Origin: Bacteroidales bacterium
GTDB taxonomy: Bacteria; Bacteroidota; Bacteroidia; Bacteroidales; Muribaculaceae
DNA: 46,668 nucleotides
Assembly (NCBI GenBank): GCA_014800525.1
Contig: JAAVFV010000029.1
Coordinates: 1-46,668, forward strand
Reading direction: 5' to 3'
How positions within the stretch are numbered: position 1 is the stretch's first letter; every line of letters starts with the position of its first letter. The translations under genes and the position numbers were made by a program. This document shows, one piece after another, positions 2,624 through 17,781 of the stretch. Below the pieces are notes generated by a model, which was not told the DNA's origin, did no database searches, and worked only from the letters and a program-made list of their open reading frames with translations.

Positions 2624-3256
2624 ATGGAAAATAATACTCTTTCTTTCTGGTCGCTGATAATGGATGGCGGCTACATCATGATTCCGCTGGCTCTCCTGAT
2701 GCTGGTGGCCATTTATATCTTTGTGGAGCGCTCCTTGGTTATCTCACGCGCTTCTAAAGGCGATAAAACTTTTATGGACCGCATCCGCGAATATGTACAT
2801 GAAGGTGATATCGAATCGGCTCAGAATCTTTGTCGCAAGACCGACACTCCCTATTCCCGGCTTATTCAAAAGGGTCTGTCGCGTATCGGTCGCCCCATGA
2901 ACGATGTGCTCGTGGCTATCGAAAACACCGGTAATATCGAAATCGCAAATCTCACCAAAGGTTTCTCATGGCTCTCCACCACAGCCGCCGGCGCTCCGAT
3001 GCTCGGCTTCCTTGGCACTGTGGTCGGTATGATTCAGGCGTTCTTCGCCCTCGCTTCCGCCGGAACATCTGCTAACATCACCGTCCTCTCAAGCGGTATA
3101 TATCAGGCCCTGGTCACCACCGTCGCCGGTCTTATCGTGGGTATTGTGGCCCTCTTCGCCTATAACTGGCTCGTGGGCCGTGTCAACCGTGTCATGAATG
3201 GCCTTGAATCTAAAACCATGGAATTCATGGACCTCCTAAATGAGCCTTCCGCATAA
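2624..3256 (+). CDS. exbB: MotA/TolQ/ExbB proton channel family protein
   Basis: Inner-membrane proton-channel subunit that uses the proton motive force to energise a TonB-type transducer. At 210 residues it has three predicted membrane segments: about 16-38 (MIPLALLMLVAIYIFVE), about 112-143 (the conserved GAPMLGFLGTVVGMIQAFF block) and about 156-182 (YQALVTTVAGLIVGIVAL). A charged cytoplasmic loop lies between the first and second. The APMLGFLGTVxGM and ALxTTxAGLxVGI motifs are diagnostic for the ExbB/TolQ family. The open frame reaches back to 2549, but residues before MENNTLSFW look non-coding, so the ATG at 2624 is preferred. exbD and a TonB-like gene follow, which makes ExbB more likely than MotA or TolQ. 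Confidence 0.92.
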   Translation: MENNTLSFWSLIMDGGYIMIPLALLMLVAIYIFVERSLVISRASKGDKTFMDRIREYVHEGDIESAQNLCRKTDTPYSRLIQKGLSRIGRPMNDVLVAIENTGNIEIANLTKGFSWLSTTAAGAPMLGFLGTVVGMIQAFFALASAGTSANITVLSSGIYQALVTTVAGLIVGIVALFAYNWLVGRVNRVMNGLESKTMEFMDLLNEPSA

Positions 3257-3336: not shown

Positions 3337-3804
3337 ATGGCTCTCAAACGTAATTTCCAAACTCTCGAGACTTTCTCCATGTCGTCGATGACGGATGTGA
3401 TTTTCCTTCTGCTCATCTTCTTCATGGTCACCTCCACTATTATTTTTCCGGCCGCTATAGATGTCAATCTGCCACAAAGCAGCGAACAGTCGTCGGAAAA
3501 ACCCGTTACGGAGGTCTATATCGATGCTGATGAGTCGCTCTGGCTGGTGGCCGACCGCAATGATTCCACTCAGCGTCTCAATACTCCCAAACAACTCACT
3601 GTCGATGAGCTCGCCACAGAACTCACTCTGATTCATCAGGCTGATTCCCTGCGCGGTATCGCTCTTTATGCTGATTCCACAGTGGCGTATGGCCGTGTGG
3701 TGAATATCCTCGATATGGCAGCGCGCAGGAATATCCGCCTCGTCCTCGCCACTAAGGCAGCTGCCCCGGCTCCCGCCTCTGAAGCAAAACCCGTGACTGA
3801 GTAA
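3337..3804 (+). CDS. exbD: ExbD/TolR family biopolymer transport protein
   Basis: Partner of ExbB in the proton-driven energiser of outer-membrane transport. The 155-residue protein has one N-terminal membrane helix (about 19-38). It begins with the family motif MTDVIFLLLIFFM, in which Asp20 is the expected proton-carrying residue. A periplasmic alpha/beta domain (about 55-140) follows, then an Ala/Pro-rich tail. The ATG at 3337 is two codons inside a possible TTG start at 3331; ATG is preferred. It sits 80 bp after exbB and 51 bp before the TonB-like gene, so an operon is likely. Confidence 0.92.
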   Translation: MALKRNFQTLETFSMSSMTDVIFLLLIFFMVTSTIIFPAAIDVNLPQSSEQSSEKPVTEVYIDADESLWLVADRNDSTQRLNTPKQLTVDELATELTLIHQADSLRGIALYADSTVAYGRVVNILDMAARRNIRLVLATKAAAPAPASEAKPVTE

Positions 3805-3855: not shown

Positions 3856-4623
3856 TTGATACAGACCACACCCGATAATACTCGCGCCCGTCGCGATTCA
3901 ATCATAGCCGCAATCATCACCCTGATTATGGCGCTATTGATTGTGCTCTGTCTGGTGTTAGGCCATATTTCTTATCCTATCTCTCAATTTGCCCAAGACT
4001 CCACTCCGGAATTAATGGCTCCTGAGGAGGAAGAACTCTTTGTCGAGCCCGAGATTCTCGAGGATCTCGGCGAACCGGATGCCCCTTCCCACGATGCCCC
4101 GGCTCCCGTGCAGCAGGGTGAACCAAAACCGGCGCCTGTGGAGAATAATAAAATCGTCACCCCGGGTGAAAATACTAAGCCGGCCCCCCAGGTAGAGAAA
4201 TTGGTTTCCACTAAAAAGGAATCTCCCGTAAAGACCACGGATCCTCCCGCCACAAACGAGGAAGCTTCAGCCATCACGTCCTCTATGGCTAATAAATTCG
4301 GCGGTAAGAATGGTCAGTCTTCAGGCGCAACGGGGTCTAACGGCGCCGGAGGCACAGGATCCGGAATCAAGGGTCACGCCAACGGCCGGACCTTCATGGG
4401 TTGTCCCTCCCCATATGTGGAATTACGCACACCGGTCACCATCACCGTCACCGTGATGATCGATGCCGAAGGTAAAGTAGTTTCGGCCAAGGCCACGGGT
4501 GGCACGTCCGCAGCCCAACGCCAGGCCTGCGAAAAAGCCGCTATGCAGGCGCGCTGGAGTCCGAAGAAAGGCGAAGCCCAGACCCGCGGAACCCTCACGT
4601 TCAACATCACACCCCGATACTAA
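3856..4623 (+). CDS. TonB-like energy transducer
   Basis: A 255-residue periplasm-spanning protein expected to couple ExbB/ExbD to TonB-dependent receptors such as the SusC protein in this window. It has one N-terminal membrane helix (about 17-40), an acidic stretch (EEEELFVEPEILEDLGEP), and a Pro/Lys-rich linker (about 75-135). A Gly/Ser/Asn-rich hinge (about 150-175) leads to a TonB_C-like domain (about 178-255), seen as VTITVTVMIDAEGKVVSAK and ending TLTFNITPRY. The start appears to be TTG at 3856, because the next in-frame ATG lies inside the membrane helix; this start is uncertain. The last 283 bp, from 4341, were copied into the chimeric pseudogene at 6840-7121. Confidence 0.85.
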   Translation: MIQTTPDNTRARRDSIIAAIITLIMALLIVLCLVLGHISYPISQFAQDSTPELMAPEEEELFVEPEILEDLGEPDAPSHDAPAPVQQGEPKPAPVENNKIVTPGENTKPAPQVEKLVSTKKESPVKTTDPPATNEEASAITSSMANKFGGKNGQSSGATGSNGAGGTGSGIKGHANGRTFMGCPSPYVELRTPVTITVTVMIDAEGKVVSAKATGGTSAAQRQACEKAAMQARWSPKKGEAQTRGTLTFNITPRY

Positions 4624-4782
4624 GACCCCATCTATCGATTGGATAACCCTGATTATTCTTAAGATTACAAATGTCCTCATTGAATTCCTTTTATCTATTG
4701 GATAAAATCTTGATTAGAATATTCAATGATTTAATATCTTTTAACAACCAGAGCATATAGGTTTAATTCCTGTATTCTTATA

Positions 4783-4814
4783 TTTACAATATTAATACGA
4801 AGAACCTAACTTTC
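4783..4814 (+). promoter_or_regulatory. Near-consensus promoter for the 4841 gene
   Basis: TTTA (4783-4786), a 20-bp spacer and TAACTTTC (4807-4814) match the Bacteroidales promoter with one mismatch in each box. It ends 26 bp before the ATG at 4841. Confidence 0.35.
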
Positions 4815-4840
4815 ACAAACCACATCTTAATTTTAACTGA

Positions 4841-6526
4841 ATGAAGAAAATTTTAATATTATGTAGCCTCTTGCTGTCATTCATGGTAAGAGCCCTCGCC
4901 ACTACGCCTGAATCCATGGCCACGCGTGCGGAAGAATACGATTACAGTTCGTTCTATCTTCTGGCCGGAAATCCGAACCCTTATTCCTTTGCTATCCAAT
5001 CCGTAGACGGGAGTAAAACGGAATTCGTGTCAAAACATGTGCCGTTGCGTAAGGGCGATTTAATCTCCATACAAAGCATGCAGTATGGGCTGCTCCTGGC
5101 GTGTGTAGGTGAGACCCTGATCACAGAGGAAAACCCGACATGCGAAATGGTATCATTGGAATTGGGTGCCACACATTACGGTGAGTCGATGCTGTTCGGA
5201 TATTATGATGTCAATATCAAATTTTCCGGACAGACCGCAAAGCTCTCATTCATAAAAGTCGAAGATATCAATGTTGACTATTCTAAATTGAATTTCTCTA
5301 TTCGGGATGGATTCACCACCACTCCTTATGAAGCTACTGATAATAAAATAGTCTATAAGTCTCTTCCCTTGCTCGGGAAACATAACTTCGTGTTCCAGAA
5401 TTCTGTCGACGGAACAATGTATGCCTGGAAAGTTGAGCAGCCGGTTGTGTCATCCGACAATCCCACCACCACCATCTACAGCAATCCGGATTATTATGCC
5501 TCCTTTGATTTCCAGGATGGACATTATGATATCACTTTAGAATATGCCGCTGACCATAGCTCTGCAAATGTTTCTTTCTCTAAATCCGTTATCCCCGAAG
5601 AAATAGCGAAGTATTCCGGAGATTTATACATGGTTGGAGAGATTTCTCAAGGAGTGATCGGCGATGAGAAATGCAAATTCACATGCCTGCAGCCCGGTGT
5701 TTACGAATGGAAGGGTGAAACCATTGACTCTGAATTCAGGATTATGGGTACCGACGATGTGATTCCCGGTACAAAATTCCGTCCTAATTTCGGAGCTCCC
5801 ATATATGACATCCCCCCATTCCTTACAGTTAATTCAGATTATCTGCTTCAGATAAACGGATCGGGGATCAGTCTGCCTGACGCTATGTATGAAATCCGCA
5901 ATCCTGTGGTCACTCTTGACCTCCGAAACCTCACACTTAAGGTTACCGGTGACTATGCACATCAGAATATCGCCCTGAAGGATCTGACTCTCATTACTTC
6001 AGATTATATCTCCCGTTCTCCGGATTCTGTAGATGAAAATTCTGCAAAATTCCAAGAAGTCGATTTCACAGACATCAATGGATTTGTGGTTAATTACCGT
6101 GATAAAATTTCTTTTGCTTACAACACCCAGGAAGGACCCATAGTTAACAAAGATAACCTCGAAGTCACGTTAAATGCCTGCAATCCCAGGGAAGCATATT
6201 TCGTTACAACCACCCTCTCCGATAAATACGATGTTATTGTGACTCTCAACGAGGCTCAGACAGCCGCCACGGTCAAGTTTATGAAATATGTTCCCACTTC
6301 GATTTCGGAAGTAGCTGATGATTCACAGGAGTATAATATAATTGGTTATTCCAATGGTGTCTACATCTCCAACACTCCGCAAGGCACTGAGATATCAATC
6401 TATACGATTGATGGCCGAAATACAGGAAACTATGTCTCCACCGGTGAGACAATGAATATCGACCTCCCGCAACGGGGCCTATACATCGTACGTATCGGTG
6501 CCTCAGCCTTCAAGATAAATATCTGA
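4841..6526 (+). CDS. Secreted protein with C-terminal sorting-like tail
   Basis: I do not recognise a named family. The 561-residue product starts with a signal peptide (KKILILCSLLLSFMVRALA, cleavage near residue 21-23). Beta-rich repeats follow. One, around residues 263-305 (GDLYMVGEIS followed by LQPGVYEWKG and SEFRIMG), resembles the SusE/SusF-type starch-binding fold, but the match is weak. The last 75 residues (about 485-561) have the layout of a type IX secretion tail: a YNIIGYSNGVYISN segment, ISIYTIDGR, and a final GLYIVRIGASAFKINI. This suggests an exported, surface-attached protein. A near-consensus promoter lies at 4783-4814, a terminator at 6551-6590. Confidence 0.8.
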   Translation: MKKILILCSLLLSFMVRALATTPESMATRAEEYDYSSFYLLAGNPNPYSFAIQSVDGSKTEFVSKHVPLRKGDLISIQSMQYGLLLACVGETLITEENPTCEMVSLELGATHYGESMLFGYYDVNIKFSGQTAKLSFIKVEDINVDYSKLNFSIRDGFTTTPYEATDNKIVYKSLPLLGKHNFVFQNSVDGTMYAWKVEQPVVSSDNPTTTIYSNPDYYASFDFQDGHYDITLEYAADHSSANVSFSKSVIPEEIAKYSGDLYMVGEISQGVIGDEKCKFTCLQPGVYEWKGETIDSEFRIMGTDDVIPGTKFRPNFGAPIYDIPPFLTVNSDYLLQINGSGISLPDAMYEIRNPVVTLDLRNLTLKVTGDYAHQNIALKDLTLITSDYISRSPDSVDENSAKFQEVDFTDINGFVVNYRDKISFAYNTQEGPIVNKDNLEVTLNACNPREAYFVTTTLSDKYDVIVTLNEAQTAATVKFMKYVPTSISEVADDSQEYNIIGYSNGVYISNTPQGTEISIYTIDGRNTGNYVSTGETMNIDLPQRGLYIVRIGASAFKINI

Positions 6527-6590: not shown

Positions 6591-6696
6591 ACCGCATAGA
6601 ATCTTAGTGGATGGAGCTTTATAGATTTAAGCCAATTCTTTCAACCATAATAAGGCTCAGCTACCTTATAATTTCAAATTATAACATATTACCACT

Positions 6697-7121
6697 ATGA
6701 GCATTTCCGACCATATCCGACATTTCTTCCATGTTGTTTCCAATGTCCGCCCGATTAGCTAGATCTGCATCTACATCGCCTGTGTCCCCCTTTTCTCTGT
6801 ATTCTATGATTTTGTGCCCGACGGACAGTTCCTCATACCCGGCGCCGGAGGCACAGGATCCGGAATCAAGGGTCACGCCAACGGCCGGACCTTCATGGGT
6901 TGTCCCTCACCATACGCGGAATTACACACACCGGTCACCATCACCGTCACCGTGATGATCGATGCCGAAGATAAAGTAGTTTCGGCCAAGGCCACGGTGG
7001 CACGTCCGCAGCCCAACGCCAGGCCTGCGAAAAAGCCGCCATGAAGGCGCGCTGGAGTCCGAAGAAAGGCGAAGCCCAGACCCGCTGAACCCTCACATTC
7101 AATATTACTCCCCGATACTGA
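6697..7121 (+). pseudogene. Chimeric pseudogene: K+ channel N-terminus fused to TonB C-terminus
   Basis: The first 144 bp (6697-6840) align without gaps to 15293-15436, the start of the intact K+ channel gene, with about 30 differences. Similarity continues upstream to about 6641. From 6840 the sequence switches to the tonB-like gene's 3' end (4341-4623) with about 14 differences. The join is in frame (channel codon 48 to the GGC GCC codons of tonB) and lies beside GGAGGCACAG, present in both parents. The original product would have been the channel's first membrane helix plus a TonB C-terminal domain. It is now broken: TAG at 6760-6762 replaces the Trp22 codon, a G is lost near 6996, and CGC-GGA has become CGC-TGA near 7084-7087. 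Each part differs from its parent, so a simple assembly artefact is unlikely. Confidence 0.85.
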
Positions 7122-7248
7122 TAGAAGTTATTCATCAAATTGCAGTTCCAATTCTCAGGTCAACAGATTGCATCATATTATTTCGACAGAGACATTTATA
7201 CTATATAGTTCTTTATCGCGGAATTGAGGGATTTCTTATTCACTATAT

Positions 7249-7279
7249 TTTGTAACTCTGTTTTTTATTCATATCTTTG
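7249..7279 (+). promoter_or_regulatory. Consensus promoter for the first AAA/nuclease gene
   Basis: TTTG (7249-7252), a 19-bp spacer and TATCTTTG (7272-7279) give an exact match to the Bacteroidales primary-sigma promoter. It lies 41 bp before the ATG at 7321, so this gene has its own transcript separate from the upstream pseudogene. Confidence 0.7.
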
Positions 7280-7320
7280 GATTCCAGCCTTTAGATTCTA
7301 ACTCATTAATTATAGAAAGA

Positions 7321-8886
7321 ATGGCAAATCCCAAATATCCGATTGGAATTCAAACTTTTGAAAAGATTATCGAAGAAGGATTCATATATGTGGATAAAAC
7401 CCGTTTCATCGCTGAATTAATCAGACAAAACGGCTATTACTTCCTAAGCAGACCACGGCGCTTCGGGAAAAGTCTGTTGCTCTCCACGCTCCATGCCTAT
7501 TTCGATGGTAAGCGGGAGCTCTTCAAGGGCCTATACCTGAATTCCGCTGATGTTGACTGGGAACCTACCCCTGTGCTTCACTTTGATCTTAATTCAGAGA
7601 ATTATCAGGTAGAAAACGGTCTGGAAATAATTCTTAACCATCAACTTAAAAGATATGAAGAGATATACGGTGTGACCTCACCGGCGCAAAGTATCGCCAC
7701 ACGCTTCGCCACTCTTATAGAAGCGGCAAGTGTAAAGACAGGCAAAAAAGTTGCCGTCCTCGTTGATGAATACGACAAACCTTTGCTCAATGTGGAGGAT
7801 AGTCCTCATATCTTAGATAAGAATCAGGCAATTCTGAAAAGTTTCTTCGGGAATCTGAAGTCGATGGATCGCTTTATAAAATTTGGATTCATCACCGGCG
7901 TAGCCAGATTCAATAAGGTCTCCATATTTTCCGATATCAATAATCTTAAAGATATCTCCCTTAATAACAAATACGCCGATATATGTGGAGTAACTCAGGA
8001 AGAGCTCCTGAAATATTTCAGGATAGGGATATCAAAACTGAAAGATAACCTGAACGTATCCTTCGAAAGAGGAATTGAACTTCTTCGTCAGAACTACGAC
8101 GGCTATCTTTTCAGCGAGAAAGGATCGCGGCTATTTAATCCCTACAGCCTTATATATGCTTTAGACGACTCAGAGATTCTCCCTTATTGGTATGAAACAG
8201 CCACACCGACCTTTCTGGCAAAAAGGATAAAGAAAAGCGGAGTCATACTCCCCAGCCTTGACCGGACTGTGTGCACACGTGCCCAGCTTCTGGCCACGGG
8301 AATCGATAATGAGGTCCCTCTCGGGCTGATGTTCCAGACAGGTTATCTCACCATCGACTCCTATGATCCGGATTTGGAAAGCTATACTTTGCGATTCCCT
8401 AACCGGGAGGTTAGAATTGGCTTTGCGGAGCAGCTTTATCATCTATATGTACCGGATACAAATACCACGGAATATCCCTTTGGTCTTATAAATTTCAAAC
8501 GGGCATTAGCGGAAGGAAATCCAGAAGACTTTATGGCCCGTTTACAGGCCCTGTGTAAATCAGCTGCCTTTGAATCGCACAATGAGGATAATTACCGCAA
8601 TATAGTGTGGCTCTTATGTACGTTATGCGGCAGCGACAGCCAAGCCGAGCGCCATAGCTATCGTGGAAGGAGTGATTTAGAGGTGAAGACGCGTAATTAT
8701 ATTTATGTGTTTGAATTTAAGTATAATGGATCAGTAGAGGAGGCCATGCAACAGATTCATTCCCGGGACTATGCAGGGCAATATACTTTTAATCATCGGA
8801 AAGTTTTCCTTATTGGTGCCAATTTCTCCACTAAATCTGATACAAAAGGACTATCTGATTGGCGGATAGAAAAAATAAAACCTTAG
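7321..8886 (+). CDS. AAA-ATPase with C-terminal PD-(D/E)XK nuclease-like domain
   Basis: A 521-residue cytoplasmic protein of the widespread Bacteroidota 'predicted AAA-ATPase + PD-(D/E)XK' family. The N-terminus has the family hallmark YPIGIQTFEKII...YVDKT. A modified Walker A, RPRRFGKS, is at 44-51 and a Walker B, LVDEYDKPL, at 147-155. The C-terminal domain keeps a nuclease-like triad in GRSD (Asp452) and FEFK (Glu465, Lys467). The biological role of the family is not established; DNA processing or defence are guesses. A paralogue lies at 16213-17781. Both copies sit just downstream of a K+ channel gene or its relic, which suggests duplication of a two-gene cassette. The ATG at 7321 is supported by the promoter at 7249-7279. 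Confidence 0.88.
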   Translation: MANPKYPIGIQTFEKIIEEGFIYVDKTRFIAELIRQNGYYFLSRPRRFGKSLLLSTLHAYFDGKRELFKGLYLNSADVDWEPTPVLHFDLNSENYQVENGLEIILNHQLKRYEEIYGVTSPAQSIATRFATLIEAASVKTGKKVAVLVDEYDKPLLNVEDSPHILDKNQAILKSFFGNLKSMDRFIKFGFITGVARFNKVSIFSDINNLKDISLNNKYADICGVTQEELLKYFRIGISKLKDNLNVSFERGIELLRQNYDGYLFSEKGSRLFNPYSLIYALDDSEILPYWYETATPTFLAKRIKKSGVILPSLDRTVCTRAQLLATGIDNEVPLGLMFQTGYLTIDSYDPDLESYTLRFPNREVRIGFAEQLYHLYVPDTNTTEYPFGLINFKRALAEGNPEDFMARLQALCKSAAFESHNEDNYRNIVWLLCTLCGSDSQAERHSYRGRSDLEVKTRNYIYVFEFKYNGSVEEAMQQIHSRDYAGQYTFNHRKVFLIGANFSTKSDTKGLSDWRIEKIKP

Positions 8887-9007: not shown

Positions 9008-12000
9008 ATGAAACATTTGATTCCAATCGGAGTTCTGGCTATCTGTTCCTATTCAGGAACGGCTGTGGCCGGGACCTCCTTCTCATGGGCTGATGCCGGA
9101 TTTGCAGCAAATCCCGGTCCCATGACGGTGGATCGCGATCGACCTCAGTCGATACATGATTTCAGTCCGACATCTATCAGTATCCAGACCTCCGCGCCCT
9201 CCGGGACGGCAACCATTCCGACCAGGGTACAGCCTAAAGCAATCAGCACTATTGCCGACCTTGCCGGCAATTATGTAATGACCTCCACATCCTGTGTAGG
9301 ATATGGCAACCCGGGACGTGAGGTCAGTATCTCCCCTGTCGCAGGCACCGACTCTATCGCTATCGATGGCTTCTGGAGCGCAGGAATCATCATAAAGGCC
9401 AAGGTCGACCTCAAAACATCCTCAGTCACGATCCCATGCCAGTATATGTATACCCACAGTGCATATGGGCCTATGGATCTCAGCGCCGTGGCCACCAACG
9501 GTGTTCCTCTGCGTAACGAGCCTATTGTAGGCACAATCAATCCCGATGGCACAATCGGTCTCGACACATGGTGGTGTGTGGCTGTACGTCAGGGAGATGA
9601 TAAAGATGAGATTGTGGATGCCAACCGCGCCACTCTCTTCGAGCGCCCCAACGCCACGATGACCTATAAGTTCCAAGGAGCTCAACCTGTCACTTTCGGA
9701 GTAGTGGCAAACCAATCCTCCTCAAATGTGGTTTCGGTAAAAAACTTTGCCAATCGCGGTGCCACTATTGAAATCAGCCTTAACGGCGAGCGGAGTGGTA
9801 TAATAGCATCCCAGACTGTTTATATCACATCCGAGGGTTCGTGGATGACAGTAGGAAATCCTTCACTCAACGATGCCGGACAGCTCGTAACCTACTCCCC
9901 GGCAATTCCCTTGAATGTAGCTCCCGACACCGATAAACACACAATATCATGGGGCAACTGGGCCATGTATCTCCCACAGAAAAAATATTCGGGCCTCATC
10001 GAATCCGGAAGTGTCACAACCGATTTTGATATCGTCTATCCTCCCAAAGCATCCGCCACTCTGAGCGGTTCCGGAACAGAAGCCGATCCCTATAAGATTG
10101 CCAATGTCTCCGACATGATTCTGCTCGCGCAGATGGTAAATACGGATCAGGATCGTTCGGGAAGCATCACTTCCGGGAATCAGACCGTGACATATGCCCG
10201 TTCCCAGAGAGGAAAATTCTTTAAGATGACCTCCGATATCGACATGGGTGGCTATCGGGCCAATTCAATCGGTTGGGATATGATTCATCAATTCGCCGGC
10301 ACATTCGATGGCGCGGGACATACCATCACAGGGCTAAATGTGGAATCCGCCGGTTTCGCAGGTCTTTTCGGTATGGTGGATACCCTAGGTGTGATTAAGA
10401 ATATCATTATCGACGCACCCACCATCACCTCCACTTCAAGTTATTATGCAGCGGCTGTAGCAGCCTATTCCCAGGGCCTTATCAGCAATTGTAATGTAAA
10501 TAAACCGACCGTAAACCAGAATGGTCAGGTTGCAGCCGGTATTGTAGGTATAGGCCGTAATGTAGAAAACTGTAATGTCACAGGTGCCAATATCTTTGCC
10601 CGTTATGGTTTTGCAGCCGGTGTCGCAGGCCAGATTAATGGCACAATCTCCAATTGCTCTGCCACAGATTGCTATATTACCGGTTCCGCCTCCGCCTCTG
10701 CCGATCCCCGAATGAATGGCGGCACGCCCATTGGTGGCGTCGTAGGCTCTCTCTTCGGAGGCACAGCCGTGGGTTGCTCTTTCACCGGTATGGTGGATGG
10801 TTACTCCCTCGGGATTTCTCTCTATGCGGGTGGTATTGCCGGTATCAATCACCTGGGTCTCATCGACCGCTGTTTATCCGCAGGCAGCGTGCTCGGATTC
10901 GGAGCAGGGTCGGTGAATGGTGGCATCGCAGGCTTCTGCACAGGACGTATCATCAATTCATATTCCGCCGGTCTGGTGGATTGTGTCAGCAGCTACTACA
11001 CCGGCGGTATCACCGGCCGTCTTTCTATCGCTGACAGTTCTTCGCCCCAGCCGGAAGTAATATCCTGCTACACCACAGCCCAGGTACGCGCCGAATCATA
11101 TCAGTATCAGCCAGCCGAGGAGATGCGTGAGACTATCGGTAAGATATGGGCCGGAACCACTCCCAGGATCGAGAATGTCTATTTCGATAATCAGATCGTT
11201 AACTTCCGTTCCGAGCGTGGTGGTCTCACAAATGCCGCTCTCACATCCGGCACTCCCGTCACAGGTCTCGACTCTTCCGTCTGGACTTATACTCCCCAGG
11301 CTTATCCGCGCCTCACCCTTCTGGCAGCATCCAAGGCTTCCGAGCTGAGTGCGTCTGCAATTCTGATGCCCCAGGGTGCCACTACTCTGATGAATATCAA
11401 TGAAGACCTTAAGCTATCTGCCTTAGGAGACACCAAATTCTCACTCCTCAATGCCGGAAAGCTCTCCGATACAGGACATTTCTGCTCCATTGCCGGAGAT
11501 TCATTGATCATAAATAAGGAGTATCGCATAGGTAATGATACTATCGTGGCTGATAATGGTGACTCGCGCCTTTATTATTACATCAAGGTTGCTCCTAAAT
11601 TCCTTGATGGCGAAGGTTCGGAGGAATCTCCATATCTGATCAGGAATAAGGCCGACCTTCTGGCGCTCGCAGAGGCCACATCCGATAAGGAACTGGTGTT
11701 TGCCAACACTTGGTTTGCCCTCACCAATGATATCGACCTTGAGAACGACCCGGCTTTTCAGGGTATCAGCTTCACCTCCAAAACCACATTACGCTTTGCC
11801 GGAACCATCGATGGCCGTGGATATGCGATCCATAATATGAAACTCGATTTCGTGAAATGGGCCACACCTCCGACCGATACCACTCTGGGCGAACTCAATT
11901 CCTCAGGCTCGGTAAGCTATGTAGGCTTCGTTAGCAAACTTGCCGCCGCAGGCGTTATCAAAAACCTCACTATCGCTGAAGATTGCTCAATCCAGGGTCT

Positions 12001-15000
12001 CGGCACGGTGGGTGCTATCGTCGGAACATCTTACGGCATGATAGAGAATTGCCGTAACTTTGCTCCTGTCACTGCCCTGGCTACAGGTGCGGGCGGTATC
12101 GCCGGTAAGCTCGAGAGCGGTTCTAAGGCTTTCAATTGCTTTAACGGCGGACACATCGTAACAGGCTATCAGGGTGCCGGAGGCATCGCAGGAGCAGGTA
12201 CTTCCTGCCAGATCCTCGGCTGTGCAAACACCGGTCTTATCGAGGCAAAAGCTCTCTGCACTGCCCGTCCGGCCGGAAACACTTCCCTTAAATATGCCGG
12301 TGGTATCGCCGGAAACTTCACCGGCACATACACCATCGCTGATTGCGCCGACTATGGTCATTCCTTTGCGGAGTATGCCACTGTCGCCAGCATCTGCGCC
12401 CGCGCGTATGGCACAGCCACTTTAACCAATAACCTTGCGCTCGGAACCCTCCGGACCAACGATGTTGTGGCTATCGGCACAATGGCCGGAGAGATTCCCT
12501 CCAAGCCTACATGGACCGATAACCTCTGGGATGCTCAGATGCTCCCCTGGAAGGCAGGCGCTTCCCAGAATATGGAGGGTGCAGAAGGAGTATCCACTGA
12601 ATCCCTCACCTCCGGAGAAGCCCTCGCACAGCTCCCCGACTCCCTCTGGTCGTATGCCAAGGGCCGCTATCCTATCCTGAAGGCTTTTGTGGATATTCCA
12701 GTGGTTCAGGCCGCTGCGCTGGCTTATTTCAATCTTCCCAAGGGTGAAAGCGTGGGCGACATGAGTTCGAACGTCATTCTCCCGTCCACCGATAATCGCG
12801 TATGGTCTCTCGAACCGGGTTCGAAGTTCTCCCTTTCCGGAAATACACTCGATGTGCCTCAGGCCACTAAGGAACTGATGGAGGGCACTCTCAGCGTAAC
12901 CGTGAACGCCATCTATTCCAAACCTTTCTATCTGAGCGTACTCCCCGGTATTCCTTTCCAAGGAAAGGGTACAGCTGAGGAGCCTTATCTGATCAGATCA
13001 GCTCAGGAATGGAATGCCCTCTCCGTATTCATGGAGTCTACAGGTCAGACTTTCGAAGGTAAGTATCTTAAGGTCACTTCAGATATCGATTTCTCTACCG
13101 AAAAGTCTCTCGCAATCGCAGCTGATGGGAAGACTTCCTTCGAAGGAACTCTCGATGGCGATAACCATACCCTTAAAAATATCAGCCTCTCGGGTGCCAC
13201 ACAGTATATGGGTCTTATCGGTTCTCTCGGCGAGCAAGGCTGTATCCGGAATCTCACTTTCAGCGGATCTGTCAATTCCACAGGCCTGAATGCAGGTGGT
13301 GTGGTAGGTAAGAGCGCCGGTAGATTCGAAAACTGTATCTCTGAAATGGAGGTCTCTTCCAATAAACTCCACACCGGTGGTTTCGCTGGTCTGGTTACAG
13401 GCGGAGCTTTCAGGAACTGCACAAGCCGTGCCACCGTAAGCTCAACCTCCACAAATGTAGGTGGTTTTATCGGCCAGGGAACAGGTCGGGTTGCTCTCGA
13501 CAGCTGTGTGTTCGAAGGAAATATCAGCTGTAACTCCACTTCCACCGGTGCCCTCAACTATGGTGGATTCATCGGCAATGCCTGGAATTCCGATTTCACT
13601 GCCTGTGTCAACAAGGGTAAATTCACCAATCTACCCGAGCGTGCCAACGGTATCGGCGGTTTCATCGGTAATGCCAATGGAGCGGTAGGTAACGGTGCCT
13701 ACACTTTCACCGACTGCCGCAATGAAAGTGATATCACAGCCGGCAACGGAGTGGCCGGTTTCGTATTCACCGCAGTTGCCACTACCGGTGCGGCTCCGAT
13801 GACCTTCACACGTTGTGAGAATATCGGTAAGATCTCAATCACATATTCATCTACAAAAGCCGCCGGATTCGTTTGTAACATCACTCCCGGATCCTCATTC
13901 ACCGACTGTGTCAATCGTGGTGAGATCTCTTCTATCGGAGGTATCACTGCCGGTATCGTGGCTATGACCGCCGGCACATTCAATACCGACAATCAGCTTA
14001 CATTCACCAACTGCTCCAACGAAGCTCCGATTATTTCTCAGGGCAACAACACCGCAGGTATAATTGGTCAGGGCGGTAATTTCACAGTACTGAAAGATTG
14101 CTCGAATACCGGCACCATCCAGGGTGCGATCTACACGGGTGGTATCGTCGGACAGCATACCGCAGTCAATCTTCTGATCGAGAATTGCTGGAACAGTGGT
14201 GATATCACTGTCAAAGGTGGCCGCGCCGGTGGTATTATCGGTTCAATGAGCGGTAACGCCGCCAAGCAGGGCGATATTCTGGTGAAGGGTTGCTTCAATA
14301 CCGGTACCATCACCACTACCTCAACATTGGGAGGCACCTCTGTCACAGCCTCTAATCCTTCCGGATATGCTATCGGCGGTCTGGCCGGTTTCACCAATGG
14401 TCGCTTCGAGAATTCCTACAATATGGGTGAGGTGAAGGGTGTATCGCGTATCGGAGGACTGGTAGGCGATCCCGGAACCAACAAGAAATTCTCAATGGCC
14501 GGATGCTACAACGCAGGTATCGTTACGGCTCCCGCCGACACATGCGGAGCAATTGTCGGTATCAACACTGAGAATGGTAAGCTCTGGACAGAGGGTGCCG
14601 TAGAGAATTCTTTCTACCTTGCAGGATGCGCCGCTTCCACTCTCCCCGTTCAAGGTAAGGAAGTAAGCGTTAAGGAATTGTGCAAGCTCTCTATAAGTGA
14701 CAGTTTCGTGGCTCCGGCTGCCAACTGTTTCCCGGTGGTGAAAGCACTTGAGGATGTGGAGATCGCGCTTCTCTATTCCGCACAGCCTGTTTTCGGCGAC
14801 GGACAGTCTGCCGACAATGTCACAGGCCCATTCATGGTCGGAACTCCGGAGAACCTCGTCTGGTCTATCTCAGGCCTGGATGCCACAATCTCAAATGGCG
14901 AGGTAAGATTCAATGAGACTTATCGTGGCGATGCTCTCCTGAATAAATCTATTGGAGATCTCTCCATTGAGATTCCTCTGAAGCTGGATGTACAGGTCAC

Positions 15001-15166
15001 TTCTCTTGATGAGCTGACCTCTGAGAAAGAGATTGTGTCCAGACTATATTTCACTCCTGACGGTATTCAGACTGCCGAACCCACACCGGGCGATGGAGCT
15101 CTCTATATTGTAGTGATCTCTTACGCCGACGGCACATCACGTTCCGTGCGTCTTCTGAATAAATAA
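9008..15166 (+). CDS. Giant secreted GLUG-repeat protein, probable adhesin
   Basis: A 2052-residue exported protein. Residues 1-21 form a signal peptide. Three large modules open with a G-x-G-(x)4-PY-x-I signature near residues 353, 866 and 1316. Each is followed by many GLUG-type units (variants of GGIAGxxxGxIxNC, for example GGIAGINHLGLIDRC and GGFIGQGTGRVALDSC) that probably stack as a beta-solenoid. The third module is the longest, reaching about residue 1890. The end, from RLYFTPDGIQ to YADGTSRSVRLLNK, resembles a type IX secretion tail. GLUG proteins are known as bacterial surface adhesins, and surface binding is the likely role; the ligand is unknown. It has its own promoter and a strong terminator (15198-15230), so it is a single-gene unit. 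The repeated DNA could expand or contract by recombination. Confidence 0.88.
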   Translation: MKHLIPIGVLAICSYSGTAVAGTSFSWADAGFAANPGPMTVDRDRPQSIHDFSPTSISIQTSAPSGTATIPTRVQPKAISTIADLAGNYVMTSTSCVGYGNPGREVSISPVAGTDSIAIDGFWSAGIIIKAKVDLKTSSVTIPCQYMYTHSAYGPMDLSAVATNGVPLRNEPIVGTINPDGTIGLDTWWCVAVRQGDDKDEIVDANRATLFERPNATMTYKFQGAQPVTFGVVANQSSSNVVSVKNFANRGATIEISLNGERSGIIASQTVYITSEGSWMTVGNPSLNDAGQLVTYSPAIPLNVAPDTDKHTISWGNWAMYLPQKKYSGLIESGSVTTDFDIVYPPKASATLSGSGTEADPYKIANVSDMILLAQMVNTDQDRSGSITSGNQTVTYARSQRGKFFKMTSDIDMGGYRANSIGWDMIHQFAGTFDGAGHTITGLNVESAGFAGLFGMVDTLGVIKNIIIDAPTITSTSSYYAAAVAAYSQGLISNCNVNKPTVNQNGQVAAGIVGIGRNVENCNVTGANIFARYGFAAGVAGQINGTISNCSATDCYITGSASASADPRMNGGTPIGGVVGSLFGGTAVGCSFTGMVDGYSLGISLYAGGIAGINHLGLIDRCLSAGSVLGFGAGSVNGGIAGFCTGRIINSYSAGLVDCVSSYYTGGITGRLSIADSSSPQPEVISCYTTAQVRAESYQYQPAEEMRETIGKIWAGTTPRIENVYFDNQIVNFRSERGGLTNAALTSGTPVTGLDSSVWTYTPQAYPRLTLLAASKASELSASAILMPQGATTLMNINEDLKLSALGDTKFSLLNAGKLSDTGHFCSIAGDSLIINKEYRIGNDTIVADNGDSRLYYYIKVAPKFLDGEGSEESPYLIRNKADLLALAEATSDKELVFANTWFALTNDIDLENDPAFQGISFTSKTTLRFAGTIDGRGYAIHNMKLDFVKWATPPTDTTLGELNSSGSVSYVGFVSKLAAAGVIKNLTIAEDCSIQGLGTVGAIVGTSYGMIENCRNFAPVTALATGAGGIAGKLESGSKAFNCFNGGHIVTGYQGAGGIAGAGTSCQILGCANTGLIEAKALCTARPAGNTSLKYAGGIAGNFTGTYTIADCADYGHSFAEYATVASICARAYGTATLTNNLALGTLRTNDVVAIGTMAGEIPSKPTWTDNLWDAQMLPWKAGASQNMEGAEGVSTESLTSGEALAQLPDSLWSYAKGRYPILKAFVDIPVVQAAALAYFNLPKGESVGDMSSNVILPSTDNRVWSLEPGSKFSLSGNTLDVPQATKELMEGTLSVTVNAIYSKPFYLSVLPGIPFQGKGTAEEPYLIRSAQEWNALSVFMESTGQTFEGKYLKVTSDIDFSTEKSLAIAADGKTSFEGTLDGDNHTLKNISLSGATQYMGLIGSLGEQGCIRNLTFSGSVNSTGLNAGGVVGKSAGRFENCISEMEVSSNKLHTGGFAGLVTGGAFRNCTSRATVSSTSTNVGGFIGQGTGRVALDSCVFEGNISCNSTSTGALNYGGFIGNAWNSDFTACVNKGKFTNLPERANGIGGFIGNANGAVGNGAYTFTDCRNESDITAGNGVAGFVFTAVATTGAAPMTFTRCENIGKISITYSSTKAAGFVCNITPGSSFTDCVNRGEISSIGGITAGIVAMTAGTFNTDNQLTFTNCSNEAPIISQGNNTAGIIGQGGNFTVLKDCSNTGTIQGAIYTGGIVGQHTAVNLLIENCWNSGDITVKGGRAGGIIGSMSGNAAKQGDILVKGCFNTGTITTTSTLGGTSVTASNPSGYAIGGLAGFTNGRFENSYNMGEVKGVSRIGGLVGDPGTNKKFSMAGCYNAGIVTAPADTCGAIVGINTENGKLWTEGAVENSFYLAGCAASTLPVQGKEVSVKELCKLSISDSFVAPAANCFPVVKALEDVEIALLYSAQPVFGDGQSADNVTGPFMVGTPENLVWSISGLDATISNGEVRFNETYRGDALLNKSIGDLSIEIPLKLDVQVTSLDELTSEKEIVSRLYFTPDGIQTAEPTPGDGALYIVVISYADGTSRSVRLLNK

Positions 15167-15197
15167 TTCCGCTCCCGAAGGAGAATCTTTGATATTG

Positions 15198-15230
15198 CAA
15201 GGGTCGTGCCGTGCACGACCCTTGTTTTGT
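15198..15230 (+). terminator. Intrinsic terminator of the GLUG adhesin gene
   Basis: CAAGGGTCGTGC (15198-15209) and GCACGACCCTTG (15213-15224) form a perfect 12-bp stem with a 3-base loop, followed by TTTTGT. Confidence 0.92.
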
Positions 15231-15292
15231 GTCCATAGCTCAACCATACTATCCGGCCTGACGTTATAATTCATATAAAAACTAAGACTACT

Positions 15293-16150
15293 ATGAGCAT
15301 ATCCGACCGTATCCGACATTTCTTTCATGTCGTCTCCAATGTCCGCCCGATCGTGTGGATCGGGGTATATATCGTGTGCGTACCCTTATTCGCTTTGTTC
15401 TATAATCTTGTCCCTGACGGACAGTTCCGCATCCCCGACGGCGGAGGCACAGACTATGGTTCCTGGCTATATTATAGTATCGTGACAATCACCACCCTCG
15501 GCTTCGGCGATTATACCCCCATGGGTCCCGGCGCCCAGGCTATCACTGCCATTGAAGTTATGGTCGGTTTGAGCGTTATGGGGTTCTTCCTTAACTCCGT
15601 CGGCGCCATGAAATCTGAAATTGATGTGGAATCGGCTCTCGAAAAACAGCGCCGTCTTCATGATGAGGAGCAGAAAACAAAACTCCTTCAGAATGTCCCC
15701 GCCATCATTCATAACATCAATACATTCCTTTCATACTGCTATGCGGCTACCACTCCGCGTGCCGACCGGGCGACTCAACGTACATTCAATCCGGATTTTG
15801 AAATCGAGGATATGAAGGATCTATATCGGCCCACAGGCATGAGCATGGACTATTCCACACGTCCTGCAGTTGAACGACTGATGGAGGCCGCTTCCGCCAC
15901 GAGTCTCGCTCTCGATTCTCTCCAGACTCACGTTGATCTCACCCAATGGCCCGAACTCCTTGAGGATTGCTTCACATTCGTGGCCGATTGTCAGATGTTC
16001 TCACATTCTGATATCCCCTCTGAGGAGAGTGTCAAGGCTCATACTCCCGACAAGCCCCATCCCCTCTATTCCCTCTCCAATTTCATAAAATCAACTTCCC
16101 GGATGGCCCTCAACATCGAGGCATTCCTCTCCAAACTTTCTGCCGCCTGA
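15293..16150 (+). CDS. Two-TM potassium channel with cytoplasmic C-terminal domain
   Basis: A 285-residue inner-membrane protein. Predicted helix TM1 spans about 18-39 and TM2 about 80-105. Between them lies a re-entrant pore loop with the K+ selectivity filter TTLGFGDY (67-74), close to the canonical T-x-G-[YF]-G-D. The remaining 180 residues are cytoplasmic, with a charged, helical start (VESALEKQRRLHDEEQKTK) and no RCK/TrkA-type nucleotide-binding motif that I can see, so the gating signal is unknown. The final residues (SNFIKSTSRMALNIEAFLSKL) are helical. A degraded copy of its first 144 bp forms the 5' part of the pseudogene at 6697. The gene directly precedes the second AAA/nuclease gene. 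Confidence 0.88.
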   Translation: MSISDRIRHFFHVVSNVRPIVWIGVYIVCVPLFALFYNLVPDGQFRIPDGGGTDYGSWLYYSIVTITTLGFGDYTPMGPGAQAITAIEVMVGLSVMGFFLNSVGAMKSEIDVESALEKQRRLHDEEQKTKLLQNVPAIIHNINTFLSYCYAATTPRADRATQRTFNPDFEIEDMKDLYRPTGMSMDYSTRPAVERLMEAASATSLALDSLQTHVDLTQWPELLEDCFTFVADCQMFSHSDIPSEESVKAHTPDKPHPLYSLSNFIKSTSRMALNIEAFLSKLSAA

Positions 16151-16188
16151 CCCGGCCGCACTTGCACCGCAGAACACCGGATTTTTGT

Positions 16189-16196
16189 TATCTTTG
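16189..16196 (+). promoter_or_regulatory. -7 promoter box of the second AAA/nuclease gene
   Basis: TATCTTTG exactly matches TAnnTTTG, ends 17 bases before the ATG at 16213 and is followed by GCATAA. A CTTG near 16161 is too distant (24 bp) for a good -33 box. The box supports starting the gene at 16213 and not at the upstream in-frame codon at 16162. Confidence 0.5.
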
Positions 16197-16212
16197 CATA
16201 AACATAAAATAT

Positions 16213-17781
16213 ATGGAAAGAAATGCCGTGAAATATCCGATAGGCGAACAGTCTTTTAAGATGCTGCGTAAGGGAGGTTTCCTCTACGTGGACAAGACTA
16301 TGTACATTGATAAAATAGTCAATGGCAGCAAGTATTATTTCTTGGGCCGCCCACGTCGGTTCGGTAAGTCTCTCTTTCTTTCAACCCTGCAGGCTTTCTT
16401 CGAAGGGAAACGAGAGCTTTTCAAGGGTCTTTATGCAGATTCCATGGACTGGGATTGGGAGCCTTATCCTGTGATATATCTTGATCTCAATCCTCAAAGA
16501 TATCAAGATGACGCTGACTTCTCCGACCTGGATATTACAGTGGATGAAACACTCAAGATTCATGAGGAGAGATTAGGTATAACCTCCCCGAATGAAAATC
16601 TTTCCGCCCGTTTCTCTTTCCTTATCCGCAAACTATCGGAGGCTATGGGGAAAGGGGTTGTCATATTAGTGGATGAGTATGACAAACCATTAGTGAACAA
16701 TATTAATGACCGCCAAAGATTTATAACATACCGCAATAAGTTAGCCGCACTCTATTCTAACTTCAAGAGCTCGGCGCCTTATCTCCGGTTAGTGTTTCTC
16801 TCAGGTGTGAGCCGTTTCGGTAAACTATCTGTTTTCTCCGGACTCAATAACATAAGCGATATCTCCTTCATTGATAAATATGCCGCCATATGCGGAATTA
16901 CTGGACAGGAACTCTCTGAAAACTTCCGGGAGGGGATTCAGGAATTGGCATCTAAATATAGACACACCCCGGAGGAGGAGATTACTCAGCTTAAACGCCA
17001 TTATGATGGTTATCACTTCTCCGAAGAATGTCCGGATATCTATAATCCCTATTCTCTGCTGCAGGTGATGGCGTATCAGAAATATTCCAATTTCTGGATT
17101 GAATCCGGAAATTCCACACTGCTTGCGGAGCAACTGAAACGGACCAATTCAGACCTTAAGTCCCTTATCAATGCAAGATGTGCGCAGAACACCTTGGAGG
17201 GCCTTGACATCGACAGTATCTCGCCGCTGGCTCTACTTTATCAGACCGGATATCTCACAATTAAAGATTATGAGTCGGTCGATGATATCTTCACTTTGGG
17301 AATACCAAATCTCGAGGTGAAACAAGGGTTCTTCGAGCAGCTTCTACCATGGTATACCTCAATCCAGAAGGATGCGACACGAGTCTTTATATCCGACCTC
17401 CGTAAGGAGATGGAGCGCGGAGAAGTTGATGCCTTTATGAAACGGCTACAATCGCTTTTCGCCGGATTCGGCCATGATTTGAAGTTTGAGGAGGAGCGGA
17501 ATGTATCCAATGCAATGCTCATCGTATTCTCTCTTATAGGGATGCACGCGGATACCGAGGTAAGGACCTCCGACGGCAGAATCGATATCCTGGTGCGCAC
17601 GGTGGATTATGTCTACATCATGGAGCTGAAATATGATAAGTCTGCGCAGGAAGCTCTTGACCAGATTGAGCGGAAGGAGTATGCTCTTCCATGGGCTGTC
17701 GATTCCCGGAAGGTCATAGAAATCGGTATCAACTACTCTTCCGAGAAAAGAAGAATAGATGGGTGGGTGATGAAAAGATAG
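16213..17781 (+). CDS. AAA-ATPase with C-terminal PD-(D/E)XK nuclease-like domain, second copy
   Basis: Paralogue of the 7321-8886 gene, 522 residues. It shares YPIGEQSFKML...YVDKT at the N-terminus, the modified Walker A GRPRRFGKS (45-53) and Walker B ILVDEYDKPLV. The middle region has the same HYDGYHFSE...YNPYSLL and LLYQTGYLTI blocks. The C-terminal nuclease-like domain has GRID (Asp458) and MELK (Glu471, Lys473). The role of the family is unknown. The open frame begins at 16162, but that extension overlaps the -7 box at 16189-16196; the ATG at 16213 matches the paralogue's N-terminus. It follows the K+ channel gene by 62 bp and is followed by a 192-bp inverted-repeat element. Confidence 0.88.
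   Translation: MERNAVKYPIGEQSFKMLRKGGFLYVDKTMYIDKIVNGSKYYFLGRPRRFGKSLFLSTLQAFFEGKRELFKGLYADSMDWDWEPYPVIYLDLNPQRYQDDADFSDLDITVDETLKIHEERLGITSPNENLSARFSFLIRKLSEAMGKGVVILVDEYDKPLVNNINDRQRFITYRNKLAALYSNFKSSAPYLRLVFLSGVSRFGKLSVFSGLNNISDISFIDKYAAICGITGQELSENFREGIQELASKYRHTPEEEITQLKRHYDGYHFSEECPDIYNPYSLLQVMAYQKYSNFWIESGNSTLLAEQLKRTNSDLKSLINARCAQNTLEGLDIDSISPLALLYQTGYLTIKDYESVDDIFTLGIPNLEVKQGFFEQLLPWYTSIQKDATRVFISDLRKEMERGEVDAFMKRLQSLFAGFGHDLKFEEERNVSNAMLIVFSLIGMHADTEVRTSDGRIDILVRTVDYVYIMELKYDKSAQEALDQIERKEYALPWAVDSRKVIEIGINYSSEKRRIDGWVMKR

Follow-up and report, generated by a model that had tools for sequence, protein, structure and literature searches.

The window analysed here, a 46,668-nucleotide contig, carries an intact tonB-like gene and an intact K+-channel-like gene, and between them a third stretch (6641–7121) in which the front of the channel gene runs into the rear of the tonB-like gene. 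The question is whether this fusion is the remnant of a new energy transducer built by domain shuffling, as the original prediction proposed, or whether it records how its two parents were once arranged. In the reading that we favour, at a probability of about 0.68, 6641–7121 marks the joint left when tonB and channel, then neighbours, were duplicated in tandem long ago, a joint that was later converted and has now decayed.

All the features concerned lie on the forward strand. The tonB-like parent (3859–4623) follows exbB (2624–3256; MotA_ExbB) and exbD (3337–3804; ExbD). Its protein matches TonB_C at an E value of 0.031, below the gathering score; all seven aligned homologues match this domain at E ≤ 1 (best 1.5e-5), and a profile search of solved structures, run from the tonB alignment, produced nothing useful, only two weak matches that look unrelated. 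The channel parent (15293–16150; Ion_trans_2, E = 7.7e-12) has its selectivity-filter stretch, TTLGFGD, at residues 67–73 and is preceded by a leader at 15240–15292. A similar leader opens the fusion (6641–6696), as had been claimed: local alignment of 6600–6696 with 15190–15292 scores 19 against a shuffle mean of 9, and none of 500 shuffles scores as high. Similarity to the DNA upstream of the channel was not found ahead of the leader, where 131 of 500 shuffles score as high. Codons 1–48 of the channel follow at 6697–6840, aligned without gaps to 15293–15436, and the 30 differences in 144 bp reported originally were obtained again (dS 0.83, dN 0.14). The copy thus takes in the first membrane helix, which was located by eye, but stops short of the filter. 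The remainder, 6841–7121, corresponds to the 3' end of the tonB-like gene (4342–4623), from which it differs by 13 substitutions and a single 1-bp deletion, so that pairwise alignment confirms both of the parentages first proposed.

The two halves meet in frame at CGGAGGCACAG, an 11-bp word that is one base longer than first described and that occurs at 4347–4357 in tonB, at 6846–6856 in the joint and at 15442–15452 in the channel gene; read from the sequence, it stands in the same phase in tonB and in the channel. There are six copies of the word in the 2.19-Mb genome, and a fourth copy within the window lies at 10756–10766, inside the large GLUG-type gene described below. A DNA search of the genome at E ≤ 0.001 matches three places only, namely the fusion, tonB and the channel, at E values far beyond chance (1.2e-125 for the tonB half and 1.4e-39 for the channel half). 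Could the joint have been made by assembly or binning, through the joining of strain variants? The assembly is a draft in 72 contigs with a completeness of 76.5%, which leaves some room for such an artefact. Assembler k-mers are, however, normally much longer than 11 bp, and with a joint that shares just those 11 bp and two halves that both differ from their parents, an assembly error is unlikely; homology also ends within unrelated sequence on both sides, and contamination is listed at 0.04. We therefore consider an artefact highly improbable.

The fusion is a broken pseudogene, with disabling lesions while both parents are intact. The two lesions noted originally are both present: a TAG stop at 6760–6762, which is codon 22 of the channel copy, and a 1-bp deletion near 6996, seen in the alignment with tonB. 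A third lesion had been missed, a nonsense change at 7086–7088 (forward strand) that turns GGA into TGA in the frame of tonB.

The arrangement of the parents in related genomes, which is observed directly, bears most strongly on the origin of the joint. Among 17 loci, six relatives (L023–L027 and L029) have the order NADK-CBS-pdxJ-exbB-exbD-tonB-channel, with an acyl-CoA hydrolase gene and miaB after the channel in five of them; the sequence of L029 breaks off behind the channel. A seventh locus, L028, reaches no more than 194 bp upstream of the channel, so that tonB would fall outside it. Nine of the other ten carry the channel alone among the window genes looked for, a set that did not include the GLUG gene, and the last, a short match from Bifidobacterium (L039), has none of these genes. 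In the relatives, the last aligned tonB residue lies 69 to 388 bp from the channel ATG. The genomes of the six relatives contain one tonB match and one channel match each, and no second tonB or channel fragment was found in the seven loci L023–L029. As a separate observation, the tonB-channel spacers of L024, L026 and L027 share GCGAAGCCGTTTCCG (1, 2 and 2 times, respectively), and GTTCCAAAGC is repeated twice in each of the L024 and L026 spacers; these words possibly belong to an intergenic repeat family.

Across the genus, protein searches that included the window's own genome gave a channel match in 76 of 111 genomes and a tonB match in 89 of 111. The match lists, inspected by eye, place tonB and channel on one contig only in the six relatives already described (G030, G014, G041, G163, G010 and G070) and in the window; the other genus genomes that have both genes carry them on different contigs. 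With adjacency seen in six relatives only, it characterises the window's nearest relatives rather than the genus as a whole. The nearest channels in the other genus genomes are 67% identical or less, and no genome of the same species or of a nearest sister was found.

Given neighbouring parents, a tandem duplication yields the joint as a by-product, with no function needed: if the segment from the 3' part of tonB to the 5' part of the channel is duplicated, the joint must read channel front and then tonB rear. The ancestral order would have been exbB-exbD-tonB-channel, and the duplicated segment would have run from about codon 162 of tonB to codon 48 of the channel, with CGGAGGCACAG as the point of joining. 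The result would be tonB, then the channel 5' part joined to the tonB 3' part, then the channel, which is the order seen; duplication of the full pair followed by an internal deletion would lead to the same outcome. What this origin leads one to expect of the locus is largely what is found. In the six relatives the parents are neighbours with a shared orientation, the fusion has the reversed order and lies between two intact parents, and a short word is shared at the joint. The duplicated spacer is recognisable at its channel-side end (0 of 500 shuffles as high) but not at its tonB-side end, since the stretches that follow tonB and its copy, 4624–4840 and 7122–7320, are not similar (498 of 500 shuffles reach the observed score). 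The beginning of the duplicated spacer must accordingly have been lost or replaced. Homology of the tonB half ends at the stop codon, as expected if selection held coding DNA only. An intermediate, either an intact duplicate or a joint without the other genes, was not seen among 110 other genus genomes.

About 10 kb of other genes now surround the fusion, and these are absent from this place in the relatives. The six relatives have no room there for 4841–6526, 7321–8886 or 9008–15166, and the gene after the channel (16162–17781) is in none of the five relative loci that reach further, so the surrounding genes were either acquired in the window's lineage or lost in theirs. The first of them, 4841–6526, lies between tonB and the fusion and encodes a probable secreted protein of 561 residues, whose matches to a T9SS type A sorting tail (E = 7e-4) and to DUF6383 (E = 0.0016) stay below threshold. 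Directly behind the fusion is an AAA-ATPase_like/PDDEXK_9 gene (AAA1, 7321–8886), and a second gene of this kind (AAA2, 16162–17781) sits directly behind the intact channel. The large GLUG-type gene is an open frame of 2052 residues at 9008–15166, between tonB and the channel, with a sub-threshold GLUG match (Pfam, E = 0.0011). The secreted-protein gene, the two AAA-ATPase/PDDEXK genes and the GLUG-type gene would now separate a pair that was once adjacent. The positions of AAA1 and AAA2 could suggest that they were duplicated jointly with the channel end. This idea was rejected: the two are only 41% alike, and AAA2 is closest to a copy on contig C26 (79%). As queries, AAA1 and AAA2 each find nine places in the genome, themselves included; among the copies, the one on contig C23 has an internal TAG and the one on C35 is partial. 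Neither gene is present at the locus in the relatives.

A single duplication would leave the two sides of the joint equally diverged if nothing happened later, and direct comparison shows that they are not. About 16 of 32 synonymous sites differ in the channel half, about 3 of 63 in 6841–7094 and 4 of 6 in the final eight sense codons (Fisher tests on these contrasts, p = 5.6e-7 and 5.6e-4), so the unequal divergence of the halves described originally is real. With synonymous divergence this uneven, one event alone is insufficient and a second is needed, either gene conversion or replacement of the channel. Under the first, the copy would have diverged for long under partial constraint before conversion, with the intact tonB as donor, rewrote its tonB part over 6841–7094, where it now differs by 8 substitutions and the 1-bp deletion (dS 0.05). 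The last 27 bp (7095–7121) would have escaped conversion and remained old, and the copy would then have decayed to a pseudogene through the stop, the frameshift and the nonsense change. We infer both the conversion and this order of events.

The tail at 7095–7121 carries five differences from tonB, all silent (four synonymous codons and TAA to TGA). Five of the 13 substitutions of the tonB half thus fall within its last 27 bp (p = 0.004). The tail was noticed before it was tested, and its weight therefore rests on the silence of its changes, which five random tail substitutions would show with a probability of 0.0003 to 0.001. Its weakness as evidence for the main reading is that it is only 27 bp long and that five differences this close anywhere in the tonB half arise in 10% of random draws. 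It would also count against this reading that conversion would have had to act between short, partly diverged copies. A second tonB gene was considered as the source of the tail and rejected, the tail being found once in its own genome within 3 mismatches (with the genome 76.5% complete). Its ending, FNITPRY, is shared only with the window's own tonB, while the six aligned homologues end in TPK or TPR; the tail therefore stems from the window's lineage. As for 6841–7094, all six relatives agree with tonB at four of the five nonsynonymous sites, the fifth being ambiguous, which indicates that the changes in this tract fall on the copy.

The main rival to conversion supposes a young joint, with the intact channel at 15293 later replaced, via recombination, by a diverged allele of another lineage. 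This would explain the difference between about 3% and 21% divergence without gene conversion, and the intervening genes, which the relatives lack here, reveal a place that can gain DNA. Third-position change also falls nearly all on the intact channel (branch of about 0.5, estimated at 0.52) and not on the copy (about 0), a point in favour that is weak because these positions are saturated. On the other hand, channel replacement leaves the silent-only tail to chance, and the copy and the window's own channel are mutually closest: in a tree of 14 sequences and 144 bases, the two form a group at 98% ultrafast bootstrap. The copy branch at positions 1+2 is, moreover, longer than a decay of 3% would give, at 0.10 in one run (5–95% range 0.05–0.17 in 60 bootstraps; channel 0.05) and 0.16 in another (channel 0.004). 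Such branch-length dating is a weak hint only, given saturated third positions and estimates that swing between runs. Taken together, we regard channel replacement as rather unlikely. In either of these readings, conversion or channel replacement, the fusion itself would be a duplication joint.

Was the fusion ever of use to the cell? A possible history is that a chimera of the channel's membrane helix and the TonB C-terminal domain was selected as a short transducer and decayed later, and this could be argued from the in-frame join, the silent-only changes of the tail and the channel half, where 14 nonsynonymous and 16 synonymous differences amount to fewer nonsynonymous changes than under neutrality (p = 0.0002). 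The deficit, however, arises partly because the intact channel is itself constrained, and the same constraint would be expected if the halves had once belonged to ordinary intact copies; as far as these relatives show, the early constraint may have acted on full-length copies or on the fusion. The comparison of dN and dS for each half, suggested with the original prediction, thus finds constraint in the channel half and none in 6841–7094, where 5 nonsynonymous and 3 synonymous changes do not depart from the neutral expectation (p = 0.42, at low power). In addition, V187, R190 and G205, kept in all six homologues compared, are changed in the fusion, and at conserved channel positions the copy alone has W22 changed to a stop, A34S and R46L (12 of 12 relatives keep the residue).

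The layout of the product argues in the same direction. TonB is described in PMC12204202 as having three domains: a motor-binding membrane helix, domain II, which spans the periplasm, and the C-terminal domain. Like the TonB/TolA force transducers, the fusion has a TonB_C-like domain and a parent tonB behind ExbB and ExbD; unlike the three-domain TonB of that account, it is without TonB's own helix and most of domain II, and it is broken. We estimate the gap from helix to domain at about 25 residues in the fusion product, against about 140 in the window's TonB. With domain II nearly absent and the frame broken, the fusion does not qualify as a TonB energy transducer. Neither is it a K+ channel: it shares with Ion_trans_2 channels the first 48 residues and the first membrane helix, but the copy ends before the selectivity filter and the second helix. 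The near-total loss of domain II makes it unlikely that the product reached the outer membrane or engaged ExbB/ExbD, and we rate the new-transducer reading low for this reason.

The unbroken version that the original prediction suggested looking for in relatives was not seen among the 110 other genus genomes, many of them incomplete, in searches with the parent proteins whose tables were inspected by eye; the sole exception in those tables is a partial channel match of 27 codons in G012, which ends at a contig edge. A DNA search of 150 genomes gave 21 with a match, the window's own included, and its reading covered loci L004–L022 and G012:C202; all 19 loci hold a tonB or channel match of the usual sort. 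Viral contigs contain no exact copy of the 27-base junction word. The first description of the locus as a chimera therefore stands as regards an in-frame join at microhomology, later decay and halves of unequal age, while its proposal that domain shuffling built a new transducer is not supported, given parents that adjoin in six relatives. We consider it doubtful that a functional chimera was selected here. The corresponding longer history, in which a duplication joint would have produced an in-frame, channel-anchored TonB C-terminal protein that was long selected before conversion and decay, seems to us similarly doubtful; if true, it would mean a mini-transducer born at microhomology and caught after its death.

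The duplication joint that we favour belongs to a known kind. Fusions at the novel joint of tandem duplications in bacteria go back to Anderson and Roth (1978), as cited in PMC11111574, where 9-bp microhomology borders are given for an illegitimate tandem duplication. As in the joints treated there, the front of the downstream gene is joined to the rear of the upstream gene, and a short microhomology is enough. The window's fusion differs from those cited in that its joint lies in frame between two coding regions and is read as old, and in that one recognisable duplicate flank has been lost and a younger tract lies inside. Given the ancestral order, its origin is ordinary. Apparent domain shuffling may thus be explainable by gene order alone, and where parents are neighbours a reversed fusion is to be expected. 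The parts of one fusion may also appear to differ in age, in which case either half alone would mislead its dating.
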